Positions 38,398-45,907 of a stretch of 64,000 nucleotides of DNA are shown in pieces; the first letter of the stretch is position 1; each line of letters opens with the position of its first letter. The stretch is from contig NZ_CP123228.1 in assembly GCF_029855045.1 (NCBI RefSeq), forward strand, positions 5,704,001 to 5,768,000, written 5' to 3'. The position numbers and the translations under genes were made by a program. Source of the stretch: Piscinibacter sp. XHJ-5 (GTDB lineage: Bacteria; Pseudomonadota; Gammaproteobacteria; Burkholderiales; Burkholderiaceae_C). Below the pieces are notes generated by a model, which ran no database searches, was not told the DNA's origin, and was given only the letters and a program-made list of their open reading frames with translations.

Positions 38398-40006
<1,609 letters not shown>

Positions 40007-40027: not shown

Positions 40028-40504
40028 CTAACTGATGTCGCCGATCTGCGACTGCAGGTAGTTCTCGAGACCCACCTTGCCCAGCAGATCGATCTGCGTT
40101 TCCAGGAAATCGATGTGTTCCTCGGTGTCGTCGAGGATGTCCTGCAGGATGTCGCGCGACACGTAGTCGCGCACCGACTCGCAATACGCGATCCCGTCCT
40201 TGATGGTGCCCTGCGCGCCGCGCTCGGACTGCAGATCGCAGTCGAGCACCTCGGGCACGTTCTCGCCGATCAGCAGCTTGCCCAGGTCCTGCAAATTGGG
40301 CAGCCCGTCGAGCATGAAGATGCGCTCCATGAGCCGGTCGGCGTGCTTCATCTCGCCGATCGATTCCTCGTATTCCTTCTTCGCCAGCCGCTGAAAGCCC
40401 CAGTGCTTGAGCATGCGGTAGTGCAGGAAGTACTGGTTGGTCGCGGTGAGCTCGTTCTTGAGCTGCGCATTCAGGTGCGCAATGACTTGCGGGTCGCTCT
40501 TCAT
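40028..40504 (-). CDS. bfr: Bacterioferritin Bfr
   Basis: A 158-residue ferritin-like subunit of a 24-mer iron store. Ferroxidase ligands Glu18, Glu51, His54, Glu94 and His130 are present, and Met52 is the axial heme ligand shared between subunits. Position 127, a bridging Glu in E. coli Bfr, is Thr here (DDTEEH, counting back from His130). The Bfd-docking region is intact by eye. It is divergent from the Feo operon across a Fur-box-like sequence and precedes bfd. Confidence 0.94.
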   Translation of the reverse strand: MKSDPQVIAHLNAQLKNELTATNQYFLHYRMLKHWGFQRLAKKEYEESIGEMKHADRLMERIFMLDGLPNLQDLGKLLIGENVPEVLDCDLQSERGAQGTIKDGIAYCESVRDYVSRDILQDILDDTEEHIDFLETQIDLLGKVGLENYLQSQIGDIS

Positions 40505-40642: not shown

Positions 40643-40670
40643 ATTATGATTGAAAACCGTTCTCATTTGC
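40643..40670. promoter_or_regulatory. Fur-box-like site between bfr and the Feo operon
   Basis: ATTATGATTGAAAACCGTTCTCATTTGC resembles the Fur consensus (GATAATGATAATCATTATC) best over ATGATTG and GTTCTCATTTGC. It is the only AT-rich patch in this 228-bp divergent region and sits 63 bp before the barrel gene and 139 bp from the bfr start. Fur control is inference from sequence and from the iron genes on both sides. Confidence 0.55.
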
Positions 40671-40732: not shown

Positions 40733-41626
40733 ATGAAACTCGAAAAAATAGTCCTGATCACCGGCTTGGCCCTGGCCGCCGGCACCCCGGCTCTCGCAGA
40801 CGAGAACCTCTTCGGCTACGTGCGCGGCGCCGAGACGCTGCCGCAGGGCAGCAAGGAGGTCTACCAGTGGCTCACCGTGCGCCGCGACAAGGGCACGGGC
40901 AGCTACCGCGCGGTCGACTCCCAGACCGAGTTCGAATACGGCCTCACCGACCGCCTGTCGCTGTCGGCAGAGGTCAAGGCCATGTCGCTGAACACCAGCG
41001 GCCTCGTGATCGACGGCTACCTGCCCGGCGACAACAAGTTCGGGCTCAAGTTCTCGGGTGTGGGCTTCGAGGCCAAGTACAACTTCCTGAGCCCGGCCAA
41101 GGACGACTTCGGCCTGTCGGGCACCGCCGGCTTCGACTACCAGACCATCGATCCGCACTCGGGCCGCAAGAAGAACACCACCAGCTTCGAGTTCGGCCTG
41201 CAGGCGCAGAAGTACTTCCTCGACGGCCAGCTCGTCGTGGTGGGCAACGCCGCCCTCGAAGCCACCTATGCCAAGCGCAAGCCGCTGGCCACCCTGCCGA
41301 CGCCCGAATTCGACTGGCCGCTGGGCGCCGAGATGGAGATCGAGCCGACGCTGGGCGCCGGTGTGAGCTATCGCTTCGCACCGGGCTGGTTCCTCGGCGC
41401 CGAAACCGTCTACCAGACCGAGTTCGAGACCGAGGTCGGCCAGGAGCGCTGGTCGCTGTTCGGTGGCCCCACGCTGCACTACGCCAGCAAGGACTGGTGG
41501 GCGACGCTGACCTACTTCCACCAGATCCGCGGCGGCGGCGAGAAGTACGACGGGCAGCCGGACCACCTGCACCTGATCGAGAAGACGCGCAACGAGCTGC
41601 GCCTGAAGGTCGGCTTCAACTTCTGA
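40733..41626 (+). CDS. DUF6662-type outer-membrane beta-barrel protein
   Basis: A 297-residue exported protein. The signal peptide MKLEKIVLITGLALAAGTPALA is cleaved before DENLFGYVRGAETLPQGSKE. The rest is alternating amphipathic strands ending RLKVGFNF, an outer-membrane-barrel C-terminus with terminal Phe. The family resembles DUF6662 proteins, which occur near flavinylation and iron genes (recalled, not searched). Role unknown; it may admit iron or be a redox-linked porin. It is the first gene of the six-gene iron operon, 8 bp before the FMN-binding gene. Confidence 0.75.
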   Translation: MKLEKIVLITGLALAAGTPALADENLFGYVRGAETLPQGSKEVYQWLTVRRDKGTGSYRAVDSQTEFEYGLTDRLSLSAEVKAMSLNTSGLVIDGYLPGDNKFGLKFSGVGFEAKYNFLSPAKDDFGLSGTAGFDYQTIDPHSGRKKNTTSFEFGLQAQKYFLDGQLVVVGNAALEATYAKRKPLATLPTPEFDWPLGAEMEIEPTLGAGVSYRFAPGWFLGAETVYQTEFETEVGQERWSLFGGPTLHYASKDWWATLTYFHQIRGGGEKYDGQPDHLHLIEKTRNELRLKVGFNF

Positions 41627-41634
41627 GCATCGCC

Positions 41635-42180
41635 ATGCGCCGTCCCCTCGACCTGTCCGCCTTCCTGCTGCCGGCGATCGCCTGCGTCAGTCCCGCCCAT
41701 GCGGTCGACTACCTGACGGTGCAGCAGGCGCAGACGCTGCTGTTCCCCGCGGCCAAGACCTTCGCGGAGCGGCCGCTGCAGTTCAGCAGCGAGCAGCGCG
41801 ATCGCATCAAGGAGCTGTCCGGCGTGCGCCAGCGCGCCGAGCGGCAGGAGGTGTGGCGCGCCGAGCGCGACGGCCAGCTGCAGGGCTGGTTCTTCGTCGA
41901 CGAGGTGGTGGGCAAGCACGAGTTCATCACCTACGCCGTCGGCGTGTCGCCGCAAGGCGAAGTGCTCGGCGTCGAGGTGATGAGCTACCGCGAGACGCAT
42001 GGCGGCCAGATCCGGGATGCCGCCTGGCGCAAGCGCTTCGTCGGCAAGACGCTGGCCGACCCGTTCAAGCTCGACAAGGACGTGCCCAACATCAGCGGCG
42101 CCACGCTGTCGTGCCGCAATGTGCTCGACGGCGTCAAGCGGCTTCTGGTGCAGCACCAGCTGTTCCTCGCCCACGGCTGA
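41635..42180 (+). CDS. Exported FMN-binding domain protein (flavinylation substrate)
   Basis: A 181-residue periplasmic protein. A signal peptide (MRRPLDLSAFLLPAIACVSP, cut near AHA) precedes a domain of the FMN_bind type. The flavinylation motif is DVPNISGATLSCRNVLDGV with Thr157 as the expected residue for phosphoester-linked FMN. Such domains in RnfG, NqrC and extracytosolic electron-transfer proteins pass single electrons. Here it sits immediately before its presumed modifier apbE and in a Feo operon, so I infer that it reduces Fe3+ or relays electrons to a ferric substrate in the periplasm. Confidence 0.85.
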   Translation: MRRPLDLSAFLLPAIACVSPAHAVDYLTVQQAQTLLFPAAKTFAERPLQFSSEQRDRIKELSGVRQRAERQEVWRAERDGQLQGWFFVDEVVGKHEFITYAVGVSPQGEVLGVEVMSYRETHGGQIRDAAWRKRFVGKTLADPFKLDKDVPNISGATLSCRNVLDGVKRLLVQHQLFLAHG

Positions 42181-42188
42181 GCGACGCC

Positions 42189-43031
42189 ATGATCCTGGTC
42201 AAGCGCATGCGTCCCCTGCTGGGCACCTATGTCGAGGTGGGGGCGCGCGCCGGGTCGGGGGCGGCCGCCGAACGGGCCGTCGACGCCGCGTTCGAGGCGG
42301 TCCGGACCGTGCACGGGCGGCTCAGCTTCCACGCCCTCGACAGCGACTTGACGCGCCTCAATCGCGCCGGCGGCGAAGCCGTCGAGCTGCAGCCGCTCAG
42401 CCTGCGCGTGCTGCGGCTCGCACAGGCGATGATGGTCGCGACCGCAGGCCTGTTCGACATGACCGTCGGCGGCGCGCTGGTGCGCCGTGGCGCCTTGCCC
42501 GACCTGGGCGGCCCGGCCCCGCTGGCGCGCGGCGAAGCGGGCGATCTGCAGCTCGGGCGCGGCTGGGCGCGCCTGCTTCGCCCCGTGCGCATCACGCTCG
42601 ACGGCATCGCCAAGGGGTATGCAGTCGATCTGGCGGTGAGCGCGATGCGCGCGCATGGCGCCACTTCCGGATGGGTCAATGCGGGCGGCGACCTTCGCGC
42701 GTTTGGACGGCATGCCGTGCCGGTGCACCGGCGCGAAGCGGACGACACGCTGGTGCCGCTGGGCGCGCTGCGCGACGCCGCCATTGCCACCTCGCACGCA
42801 CGCGCCCCCGACGCCGCCTGGGATGCCGGCCGGCCTGCGCTGATCGTTCCCCTGTCCCCTGCGCAGCCGATGGCCGGAGTGTTCAGCGTGCTGGCGCGCA
42901 AGGCCTGGCGCGCCGACGCGCTGACCAAGGTCGCCTGCCAGATGGCCGGCGCGCCGCGCGAGGCGATGCTGCGCCGCCTGGGCGGCGTGCTGGTGCTGCC
43001 CGCAGCGGCCGACGCGGGAGCGCCAGCATGA
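42189..43031 (+). CDS. apbE: FAD:protein FMN transferase (ApbE family), lacking a signal peptide
   Basis: A 280-residue flavin transferase that moves FMN from FAD onto Thr/Ser of FMN-binding domains. Seen are LSFHALDSDLTRLNRAGG, FDMTVGGAL, ITLDGIAKGYAVD, WVNAGGDLRAFG, IATSHARA and ADALTKVACQMAG, covering the FAD- and Mg-binding regions. It is shorter than typical ApbE (about 330) and begins MILVKRMRPLLGTYVEV with no signal peptide or lipobox, whereas most ApbE acting on periplasmic targets are exported lipoproteins. It overlaps the FeoA-fusion start (ATGA at 43028-43031). Confidence 0.88.
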   Translation: MILVKRMRPLLGTYVEVGARAGSGAAAERAVDAAFEAVRTVHGRLSFHALDSDLTRLNRAGGEAVELQPLSLRVLRLAQAMMVATAGLFDMTVGGALVRRGALPDLGGPAPLARGEAGDLQLGRGWARLLRPVRITLDGIAKGYAVDLAVSAMRAHGATSGWVNAGGDLRAFGRHAVPVHRREADDTLVPLGALRDAAIATSHARAPDAAWDAGRPALIVPLSPAQPMAGVFSVLARKAWRADALTKVACQMAGAPREAMLRRLGGVLVLPAAADAGAPA

Positions 43032-43750
43032 AGGGTTATCCGCCGCGCTTTCCGGCGCTGCTCTGGACGGCCTGCGCGACAGCGTTCGCCAGCGGGCTGC
43101 TGCTGGCGCCCACCACGCTTGCGATGCGCGTCGGCTGGCCCGTGCCGTGGCGCCTGCCGTCCGACGCGCGGCTGCTCGCCGCCGCGTCGCACGCCGCCGC
43201 CTCGTTCGTGCTGCTGATGGTCGTGGGCGCCCTGTGGACCATCCACATGCGGGTGGGCTGGCGGCGCGGCCGCCAGCGGGTCACCGGCGCCACGCTCGTG
43301 AGCGGTGTCGCCGGCCTGGTGTTGAGCGCACTTGGCGTCTATTACCTCGGCGACTCGGAGCTGGCCGGCGACGTGGCGCTGGTGCATGTGTCGCTGGGCG
43401 TCCTGCTCGCGCTACCGCTCGCGGTCCACGCCACGATCGGCAAGCAGCAGCGCCTGCAACGCAGCGCCGGAGCAGGTCCCGACCCGCAGCCGCGGTTCGC
43501 GGGCACGGTGCTGCTCGCCGATCTGCCCGAAGGCGCCTGCGCCACTGTCGCTGCCGTGGCCGCCGCCTCGCCCGACGTCGATGCGCTCGTGCTGCGCCGC
43601 CTCGGCGAGCTCGGCTTCATCCCCGGCGAGCCCGTCGAGCTGCTGCGCCGAGGTCCCGGCGGACGCGAGCCGATCGCCGTGCTGGTCGGCGAGACGCTGT
43701 TCGCGCTGCGGCTGCTCGAAGCCCAATGCATCGCGGTGCACCCGCTCTGA
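43028..43750 (+). CDS. Four-helix membrane (b-cytochrome-like) domain fused to FeoA
   Basis: A 240-residue fusion. The N-terminal part has four hydrophobic segments (about 10-30, 50-72, 88-107, 115-137). Four His residues sit in or at the edges of two of them: His55 and His73 in the second, His120 and His134 in the fourth; the latter are spaced H-x13-H as in b-type cytochromes. After a linker (about 140-155) a FeoA/SH3-like domain runs to the end: LADLPEGACATVAAV, RLGELGFIPGEPVELLRRGP and LVGETLFALRLLEAQCIAV. FeoA binds and activates FeoB on the cytoplasmic side. Heme binding is inference. It is 7 bp before feoB. Confidence 0.8.
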   Translation: MKGYPPRFPALLWTACATAFASGLLLAPTTLAMRVGWPVPWRLPSDARLLAAASHAAASFVLLMVVGALWTIHMRVGWRRGRQRVTGATLVSGVAGLVLSALGVYYLGDSELAGDVALVHVSLGVLLALPLAVHATIGKQQRLQRSAGAGPDPQPRFAGTVLLADLPEGACATVAAVAAASPDVDALVLRRLGELGFIPGEPVELLRRGPGGREPIAVLVGETLFALRLLEAQCIAVHPL

Positions 43751-43757
43751 GACATCC

Positions 43758-45656
43758 ATGGCTTCCGCCCACATCCTGCCCGCCCCGCCTGCCACGTCGT
43801 GGAGCGTCGCGCTGGTCGGCAATCCGAACTGCGGCAAGACGGCGCTGTTCAACCTGCTGACCGGCGCACGCCAGAAGGTCGCCAACTACGCCGGCGTCAC
43901 CGTCGAGCGCAAGGTCGGCATCGCACGCCTGTCCGGCGGCCGCACGCTGTCGGTGGTCGACCTGCCCGGCGCCTACAGCCTTACGCCTGCCACGCCGGAC
44001 GAGCAGGTGACGCTCGAGGTCATCGAAGGGCGCCGACCCGGCGAAGCCGCACCTGACGCGATCGTCGCGGTCGTCGACGCGACCAATCTGCGCATGAACC
44101 TGCGCCTGGTGCTGGAGCTGCGCCGCCTGGGGCGGCCGATGATCGTCGCGCTGAACCTGGCCGACGTCGCCCGCTCGCAGGGCCTGGCGATCGATGCGAC
44201 GCGCCTCTCGCGCGAGCTCGGCTGCCCGGTGGTGGAGACGGTGGCCGTGCGGCACGACGGACATGCGCAGCTGCTGGCCCAGCTGGAAAGCGGCTTCGGC
44301 CCGGGACCGGCCACCGCGGGCGGCCTCGCACCGCACGAGCCGGCGACGCCGTCCGAGCTGCAACGCGAAGTGCGGCGCATCCTCGCGGCCGCTGCGCCGG
44401 CGGCCCTCAGTGGCGCGTTCGCAGCCAGGCGCTTCCAGCGCCGCATCGACGCGGTCGCCATGCATCCGGTTTGGGGCCTGGTCGTGCTGGCCGCGCTGCT
44501 GTTCCTGATCTTCCAGGCGGTGTTCACCTGGGCGGTCGTTCCGATGGACGCGATCAAGGCCGCCATGGCCGGCCTCGGCGACTGGGTGACGGCGCACATG
44601 GCCGAAGGGCCGCTGCGCAGCCTGCTGGTCGACGGTGTCATCGCCGGCGCCGGCGGTGTCATCGTCTTCCTGCCCCAGATCCTCATCCTGTTCTTCTTCA
44701 TCCTGCTGCTCGAGGACTCGGGCTACCTGCCGCGCGCGGCCTTCCTGCTCGACCGGGTGATGGGCCGCGTCGGACTGTCGGGGCGTGCCTTCATCCCGCT
44801 GCTGTCGAGCTTCGCCTGCGCGGTGCCGGGCATCATGGCCACGCGCACCATCGCGAACTGGAAGGACCGGCTGGCCACCATCATGGTGGCGCCCCTGATG
44901 ACATGCTCGGCGCGGCTGCCGGTCTATGCGCTGCTCATCGGCGCCTTCGTGCCGGCGCGCGAAGTCGGGCCGTTCAACCTGCAGGGCCTGACGCTGTTCG
45001 TGCTGTATGCGGCGGGCGTGCTGGCGGCAATGGGCGTGGCATGGGTCTTCAAGCGCGCCTGGATGAAGAGCGCCTACCAGCCGCTGATGCTCGAACTGCC
45101 GCCGTACCGCATGCCGGGCGTGCGCAACCTGCTGCTCGGCCTGTGGGAACGCGCGCGGATCTTCCTGCGCCGTGTCGGCACGATCATCTTCTCGCTGATG
45201 GTGCTGCTGTGGTTCCTCTCGAGCTATCCGGCCCCGCCGGAGGGCGCGACCGGACCGGCCATCCAGTACAGCATCGCCGGCTGGCTGGGACAAGGCCTGC
45301 AGCACCTCTTCGCGCCGATCGGCTTCAACTGGCAGATCTCCATCGCGCTGGTGCCGGGCCTGGCCGCACGCGAAGTGGCGGTCGGCGCGCTGGGCACCGT
45401 GTATTCGCTGTCGGCGGCAGGCGATGCGGTGGCCGACACGCTCGCCCCGGTCATCGCGCAAGGCTGGTCGCTCGCCACCGCCTTCGCGCTGCTGGCCTGG
45501 TATGTGTTCGCTCCGCAGTGCATCTCCACGCTGGCGGTGGTGAAGCGCGAGACCAATTCGTGGCGCTATCCGGTGGCGATGGCGACGTATCTCTTCGTGC
45601 TGGCGTACGTCGCCGCGTTCGTCACCTACCGCGTGACGCTGTGGCTGGGAGGATGA
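43758..45656 (+). CDS. feoB: Ferrous iron transporter FeoB
   Basis: A 632-residue GTPase-permease. The N-terminal G domain has GNPNCGKTALFNLLTGA (G1), VDLPGAYSL (G3) and ALNLAD (G4, usually NMxD). The membrane core carries the conserved Cys gates SSFACAVPGIMATRT and MTCSARLPVYALLI, and FAPQCISTLAVVKRE near the end. It is shorter than E. coli FeoB (773) because the cytoplasmic tail is absent, which is usual when a separate small partner is present. It moves Fe2+ into the cytoplasm. It follows the FeoA fusion by 7 bp and overlaps the next gene by 4 bp. Confidence 0.96.
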   Translation: MASAHILPAPPATSWSVALVGNPNCGKTALFNLLTGARQKVANYAGVTVERKVGIARLSGGRTLSVVDLPGAYSLTPATPDEQVTLEVIEGRRPGEAAPDAIVAVVDATNLRMNLRLVLELRRLGRPMIVALNLADVARSQGLAIDATRLSRELGCPVVETVAVRHDGHAQLLAQLESGFGPGPATAGGLAPHEPATPSELQREVRRILAAAAPAALSGAFAARRFQRRIDAVAMHPVWGLVVLAALLFLIFQAVFTWAVVPMDAIKAAMAGLGDWVTAHMAEGPLRSLLVDGVIAGAGGVIVFLPQILILFFFILLLEDSGYLPRAAFLLDRVMGRVGLSGRAFIPLLSSFACAVPGIMATRTIANWKDRLATIMVAPLMTCSARLPVYALLIGAFVPAREVGPFNLQGLTLFVLYAAGVLAAMGVAWVFKRAWMKSAYQPLMLELPPYRMPGVRNLLLGLWERARIFLRRVGTIIFSLMVLLWFLSSYPAPPEGATGPAIQYSIAGWLGQGLQHLFAPIGFNWQISIALVPGLAAREVAVGALGTVYSLSAAGDAVADTLAPVIAQGWSLATAFALLAWYVFAPQCISTLAVVKRETNSWRYPVAMATYLFVLAYVAAFVTYRVTLWLGG

Positions 45657-45907
45657 GCATGCAGGCGTTCATCGTGGCCCTCATCGTGATCGGCTGCACC
45701 GCTTATGCGGTGTGGACCCTGATGCCCTCGGCAGCGCGCCGCGCGCTGGCGCAGCTGCTGCTGCGGGTCCGCTGGCCGGACCGCATCGCCAGGGTGTGGC
45801 GCCGCGAGGCGGCCTCCACGGGCGGATGCGGCGGCTGCGACAGCTGCGGCGACGCCGTGCCGCGCGACTCGCACACGATCAAGGTGCACCGCCGCCTGCC
45901 GCGCTAG
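45653..45907 (+). CDS. FeoB-associated Cys-rich small membrane protein
   Basis: An 84-residue protein with one N-terminal helix (MQAFIVALIVIGCTAYAVW) and a basic cytoplasmic region followed by the cysteine cluster GGCGGCDSCGD near residue 58. This matches the idea of small Cys-rich proteins encoded with feoB (FeoB-associated family) and may occupy the FeoC position. The cluster could bind iron or an Fe-S centre. The start overlaps the feoB stop (ATGA), so expression is coupled to feoB. It ends the operon, 12 bp before the convergent ispH. Confidence 0.8.
   Translation: MSMQAFIVALIVIGCTAYAVWTLMPSAARRALAQLLLRVRWPDRIARVWRREAASTGGCGGCDSCGDAVPRDSHTIKVHRRLPR

Follow-up and report, generated by a model that had tools for sequence, protein, structure and literature searches.

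A conserved flavoprotein cassette beside feoAB in Piscinibacter sp. XHJ-5: a candidate iron-linked electron-transfer module whose membrane protein is fused to FeoA

We analysed a stretch of 64,000 nucleotides (the window; positions 5,704,001 to 5,768,000 of contig NZ_CP123228.1) from Piscinibacter sp. XHJ-5, whose genome is a single contig of 6.65 Mb, and in it a six-gene operon which joins a flavoprotein cassette to the iron transport genes feoA and feoB. All six genes lie on the plus strand and every open reading frame (ORF) is supported by a Pfam or NCBIfam match. They follow each other with gaps of 8, 8 and 7 bp and two overlaps of 4 bp (in order 8, 8, -4, 7, -4) and the bacterioferritin gene bfr is divergent from them, all as described in the original prediction. 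The six genes are two modules: the first consists of a DUF6662 barrel, a flavin mononucleotide (FMN)-binding protein, an ApbE-like protein and a four-helix membrane protein, and the second of feoA, feoB and the gene for a Cys-rich protein. The features are presented in Table 1. FeoB has the G domain and gate domains of a Feo transporter (TIGR00437, PF02421, PF07670 and PF07664) with FeoA (PF04023) nearby, and no other match in the genome reaches FeoB grade (183.5 bits against 46.2 for the next). The Cys-rich protein scored 22.6 bits against PF12669 (FeoB_associated), under the cut-off of 27.

Table 1. Features of the operon and of the adjoining bacterioferritin genes, in window positions.
Feature	Position	Strand	Support and remarks
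bfd-like [2Fe-2S] bacterioferritin-associated ferredoxin	39788..40006	-	PF04324, 37.1 bits; adjoins bfr in L063, L064, L065, L039 and L129
bfr, bacterioferritin	40028..40504	-	TIGR00754, 234.6 bits; 94% identical to congener L063
DUF6662 outer-membrane barrel	40733..41626	+	Pfam, 339.2 bits
Exported FMN-binding protein, RnfG/NqrC-like domain	41635..42180	+	PF04205, 44.8 bits; SGAT Thr157 codon 42103-42105
Divergent ApbE-like protein	42189..43031	+	PF02424, 94.8 bits
Membrane domain and FeoA, one ORF	43028..43750	+	PF04023, 53.5 bits at residues 162-238
Four-helix membrane domain, residues 1-148	43028..43471	+	Candidate two-heme cytochrome b; His codons start at 43190, 43244, 43385 and 43427
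In-frame junction	43472..43510	+	Frame 0 without stop; in-frame GTG at 43508
FeoA domain	43511..43741	+	PF04023
FeoB	43758..45656	+	TIGR00437, 482.8 bits
Cys-rich small membrane protein, FeoB-associated (DUF6587)	45653..45907	+	PF20228, 41.8 bits; 3' of feoB in congeners L063-L066

The membrane domain is fused to FeoA, as had been claimed. Frame 0 contains no stop from 43028 to 43748 and therefore a fully translated membrane protein always carries FeoA, which is the only FeoA match in the whole genome. The GTG at 43508 (start VLLADLPEG) aligns with the ATG start of FeoA in relatives (MLLTDLPDG and similar), so that free FeoA may be made too. A second Fur-like site located directly before feoA in congeners (for example AAATGAGAGACAATCTCATTTGC) is gone from the window, and TCTCATTT occurs once in the 64-kb window, counting either strand. 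No second membrane protein-FeoA fusion was found among 118 loci with the membrane protein, and no unbroken match over both domains elsewhere in genome sets of the family (60), genus (5), order (399) and class (369); these draws overlap, at most seven candidates per genome were scored in the order and class sets, and the negative for the order holds among the matches listed. The clearest other two-domain match (locus L037 of genome G045) has its two genes parted by TAA, while G434 and G518 gave weak, stop-broken matches extending past the junction. As no second genome was found to have it, the fusion was rejected as a general design, and the proposal that it places FeoB next to the electron source does not hold as a general mechanism.

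We gathered relatives of the cassette from searches of whole genomes and from a genome scan; a first scan with P0004 alone had yielded none. Of 299 family genomes, 45 encode a protein related to the FMN protein (E up to 0.001). In a phylum-wide sample of 398 genomes the FMN profile matched in 79 at the same threshold and in 13 below 1e-40. The window's genome is counted among the 45 and among the 13. We examined 45 of the 46 family match places (all but a fragment in G107), and 41 of them have the FMN protein, ApbE and membrane protein together on one strand (exceptions are L107, L109, L128 and L134). The block headed by DUF6662 (type A) is found at five family places (the window, L098, L099, L105 and L122) and is complete in 73 of 80 named loci, which are the best 80 of 532 candidates obtained with a profile that has the window's protein at its head and hence favour type A. 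Among the incomplete loci, DUF6662 is missing from L204, L208 and L211, while L193 has neither DUF6662 in place nor the membrane protein; the latter is also missing from L144, L148 and L153, and the contigs of L148 and L153 end shortly after the ApbE start. The complete loci come from Proteobacteria, Verrucomicrobia and other groups, and taxa with type A include Shewanella, Methylotenera, Novosphingobium, Thiobacillus and Verrucomicrobia. Type B is a sister form without DUF6662, with a Porin_O_P-like barrel in that place in one example and a di-heme CCP/MauG lipoprotein farther upstream in 27 loci; for the barrel and for the lipoprotein, one example of each was scanned with Pfam. This lipoprotein has two CxxCH motifs (L063:3180-4436 and 26 other family loci) and is separated from the FMN gene by a long ORF, which appears porin-like in L048.

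The association with feoAB is recurrent. The fetched stretch contains feoB in 8 of the 80 named loci (L180, L182, L190, L201, L206, L209, L210 and L212; L161 would be a ninth, with a weak match of 82 bits) and a match to bfr in 10 of them. The membrane protein is followed directly by FeoA at 7 of the 45 family places (L037, L040, L063, L065, L119, L129 and the window), and the unfused order type A-feoA-feoB is seen in L190 and L210 with more distant feoAB. At these frequencies the six genes are not the fixed conserved set that had been proposed. Neither a name for the cassette nor a description of the arrangement was found in the titles, abstracts and passages of the open literature that were searched.

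The predicted Fur-like site between bfr and the cassette is present as TGAAAACCGTTCTCA at 40651-40665, which agrees at 14 of 15 positions with the Fur 7-1-7 consensus TGAKAAYNRTTMTCA, on which all Fur scores rest. The congener L063 has the same 15-mer, L065 differs from it at two positions and L064 has diverged further; the block around it is conserved in L063 and L065 despite different downstream genes. We scanned 300 bp upstream of the cassettes, shifted for the CCP loci, in the 113 of 117 loci which have at least 150 bp upstream. Sites of at least 12/15 are present in 67 of these 113 regions and of at least 13/15 in 48, while 315 shuffled palindromes gave means of 10.1 and 1.4 regions and maxima of 61 and 36, the motif reaching 36 being TKAGAAY, a near copy of the Fur motif. 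Tested against random segments from their own locus, 59 of the 113 regions have p <0.05 (35 of 74 for type A, 21 of 27 for type B with CCP and 3 of 12 for the others). These counts are taken over related loci and the sites may serve divergent genes. The genome contains two FUR-family matches. From the putative Fur box upstream, the operon looks Fur-regulated, and the link of the cassette to iron is well supported.

The gene order serS-bfd-bfr-[slot]-feoA-feoB-cys-ispH-fkpB-radC recurs in the genus and its neighbours, with variable contents in the slot. It is empty in L064 and holds type A in the window, type B in L063, L065 and L129 (apparently also in L067/L066, across a contig break) and an inverted membrane protein with ApbE in L039. 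No FMN match was found in G062, the genome of L064, which is 95% complete in 670 contigs. In the family genome G046 (L039:8369-10132 and L109) the inverted pair stands between bfr and feoAB, and the sole FMN match is on another contig without ApbE. FeoB of the window is 84-85% identical to that of L063, L065 and L066 and 82% to that of L064, with 76-80% for FeoA and 88-94% for Bfr. The FMN protein, in turn, is 77% identical to that of Aquabacterium L150 and 45-48% to those of congeners. In quick trees, as all our trees were, the five FeoB proteins of the genus cluster as a single clade (support 92), the FMN protein of the window falls inside type A (98), and its ApbE (96) and membrane protein (95), each in a tree of 43 chosen rows, fall in sets without congeners. 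FeoB thus groups with the genus and the cassette genes with type A, which indicates that the history of the cassette differs from that of feoAB. The cassette may have replaced one of type B or may have been inserted into an empty slot; either history fits.

In the membrane protein, H55, H73, H120 and H134 are invariant in 42 of 42 aligned sequences, the window's included. The predicted structure has four helices, mostly with a predicted local distance difference test (pLDDT) score >90, and the charge distribution places both ends of the membrane domain inside, on the side where FeoA works. Prokaryotic cytochrome b561 (PF01292) matched 8 of 30 aligned rows, with a best E of 2.7e-6, and DUF4405 (PF14358) matched 5 of 30 weakly, with a best E of 0.002; the window sequence matched neither, and its four helices differ from the six transmembrane helices of DUF4405 cytochromes. 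Foldseek with the P0004 model gave no match under E 0.001. In a structural second look diheme cytochromes b rank high. Its 50 listed matches contain no PepSY structure such as FoxB, which excludes nothing, and the PepSY_TM families PF03929 and PF16357 are not among 25 of the 27 families listed for A2. On this sequence evidence we regard the membrane protein as a candidate two-heme cytochrome.

The FMN-binding protein contains the SGAT motif that had been noted. Its Thr157 is invariant in a chosen set of 24 aligned sequences (24 of 24, the window's included), and [ST]GA[ST] occurs in 121 of 123 cassette FMN proteins, L134 with its weak FMN hit being left out of the motif counts. The profile of this protein (A1) matches the RnfG chain 9eri_G (E 1.1e-9) as well as NqrC chains. 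Covalent FMN on Thr157 is plausible, judging from SGAT. The N-terminus is signal-peptide-like; Tat export, considered for the MRRP in the window protein, was rejected, the twin Arg being missing from most of the 26 starts compared. At L196:9980-11060 a tandem pair of FMN-binding matches lies within one cassette.

Other neighbours were sought as recurrent ORF clusters, several of which are shadow ORFs; crude gene calling around the cassettes was swamped by these in the GC-rich DNA. Four of ten scanned neighbour representatives have no Pfam match (L106:10963, L106:11629, L201:5916 and L188:12009) and were set aside, and those matching GGDEF, AMP-binding, TonB_C and ribosomal S2 were judged unrelated. 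One recurrent cluster (L150:14727-15503; also L111, L190, L206, L209 and L212) has a TonB C-terminal domain in one scanned member. In addition, G000:C1:1160552-1166011 holds FUR-family, PepSY_TM and ApbE matches within 6 kb and may be a second flavinylation/iron cluster.

The earlier inference of an envelope electron-transfer module tied to iron agrees with the conserved cassette, the Fur-like sites, the recurrent nearness to feoB and bfr and the four invariant His, and we consider iron-linked envelope electron transfer likely. Counting in addition the b561 and diheme likeness and the slot locus, the best single reading is that of a periplasmic Fe(III) reductase under Fur control which supplies FeoB, and to this reading we give a probability of roughly 0.55. 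Under iron limitation, Fur would release the six-gene operon, and the DUF6662 channel in the outer membrane would let in iron or small iron complexes. The four-helix cytochrome, with two bis-His hemes, would draw electrons from the quinol pool or from a donor in the cytosol and pass them across the inner membrane to the periplasmic FMN protein, which would reduce Fe(III) to Fe(II) for import by FeoB. In the strain studied here, with its type A cassette in the slot between bfr and feoA, the cytosolic C-terminal FeoA on each membrane protein would bring the electron supply beside FeoB. Periplasmic reduction ahead of FeoB has a precedent in FsrB of Bradyrhizobium, according to passages of PMC10760861.

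Several observations weigh against this reading. About half of the upstream regions are without such a Fur-like site. The acceptor motif of the FMN protein differs from D-x-x-[S/T]-G-A-[S/T], reading D149-V-P-N-I-S-G-A-T157 with the Asp two residues farther upstream; changing the Asp of the motif to Ala is described as having minor effects only (passages of PMC12052999). The prediction of an ApbE flavin transferase is upheld as to family; the protein itself departs from the canonical periplasmic type: a crude hydrophobicity test detected no signal peptide or lipobox in the window ApbE, and the active-site His motif HxxDP is missing, with Ser and Asp retained. The same is seen across the 123 cassette ApbEs by crude motif tests, where HxxDP occurs in 2, the Ser in 119, the Asp in 116 and a signal-peptide-like start in 1. 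Two more ApbEs in the same genome, L001 and L003, retain HxxDP. Passages of PMC12052999 describe an Asp-Ser-His triad, a less active H257G mutant and the existence of cytosolic ApbEs. The shifted Asp and the non-canonical ApbE count against a simple flavinylation story. As an observation in its own right, an ApbE subfamily without visible signal peptide or active-site His adjoins exported FMN proteins.

The electrons might instead pass through the membrane and FMN proteins to a periplasmic peroxidase or to oxygen, shielding Fe(II) import from Fenton chemistry with no reduction of Fe(III). The CCP/MauG lipoprotein upstream of 27 type B loci and the position of bfr next to the slot speak for such an envelope defence, but all 27 CCP loci fall outside type A, the type of the window, and both cassette types have Fur-like sites upstream; we judge it improbable. 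It is likewise unlikely, in our estimate, that the cassette is a flavin branch replacing cytochrome c carriers when iron is short, in which case Fur control would serve iron saving and the nearness of feoAB would be incidental. Substitution of flavins for cytochromes in iron-poor settings is discussed in passages of PMC8238504, and 72 of the 80 named cassettes are without feoB in the fetched stretch. However, the membrane partner is itself likely a heme protein, feoB or bfr is found close to the cassette in several groups and, besides the type B CCP, no terminal reductase was seen in the small sample of ten neighbour ORFs scanned.

The fusion could also be a neutral accident of the cassette landing before feoA, with a separate FeoA made from GTG 43508 and an idle tail. 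The alignment of this GTG with the ATG of relatives agrees with an accident, as do the detection of the fusion in a single genome and the lack of a clear ribosome-binding site before FeoA in the compared relatives as well. On the other hand, full translation of the membrane protein always yields the fused form, which carries the only FeoA found in the genome, with its domain intact. We put a neutral fusion at somewhat less than an even chance. A bolder form of the ferric reductase reading would see in this widespread, Fur-regulated cassette, for which our searches gave no printed name, the missing periplasmic ferric reductase for Feo, made up of an outer-membrane channel, the FMN protein, a non-canonical ApbE of cytosolic type and a four-helix diheme cytochrome and forming a swappable block beside feoAB. 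FeoA, a brake on the FeoB GTPase in one studied case, would here have become a cytochrome tail that physically couples electron supply to FeoB gating. We regard this whole picture as rather doubtful.

Clusters of an ApbE, a flavinylated protein and a His-rich membrane cytochrome are described in passages of PMC8238504 and PMC11334425 for PepSY-like, MsrQ-like and DUF4405/FezC systems, for which iron reduction and assimilation are proposed and of which some PepSY clusters are Fur-repressed. The present cassette differs from them in its four helices with weak cytochrome b561 likeness, its DUF6662 barrel, its FeoA fusion and its non-canonical ApbE. The iron partner is FeoAB here, whereas those passages name VIT1, P19/FTR1 and TonB receptors; the main text of PMC8238504 has 'Feo' once, in a reference title, and DUF6662 never, and that of PMC11334425 has neither. 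Among the FoxB/FsrB ferric-siderophore reductases, FsrB reduces periplasmic iron which FeoAB then imports; it is, however, of the COG3182 family, and passages of PMC10760861 mention no flavoprotein cassette or FeoA fusion for it. FeoA is also tethered in a multidomain protein in FeoA-FeoB fusions, and in Bacteroides fragilis removal of FeoA raises GTP hydrolysis about 50-fold (passages of PMC8980893 and PMC8749426). In our case, by contrast, the membrane protein that carries FeoA is not FeoB. PMC8749426, whose main text does not contain the word cytochrome, notes cases in which FeoA has 'an additional domain'. RnfG and NqrC share the FMN_bind domain with SGAT, but the small exported protein of the window stands alone, with a best NCBIfam score of 40.6 bits (cut-off 102) and no other Rnf or Nqr genes among the six.

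FeoB needs Fe(II), yet aerobic bacteria rely on FeoB without a known reductase. Passages of PMC10760861 state that inorganic iron in Bradyrhizobium must be served by an unknown ferric reductase, and passages of PMC7376174 report no vciB-like gene in a Sphingobium using FeoB. A Fur-linked cassette present in several phyla is a concrete candidate for the reductase serving FeoB. One genus here offers a natural series of an empty slot, a type B cassette and a fused type A cassette, in which the contribution of the cassette may be compared between close relatives.

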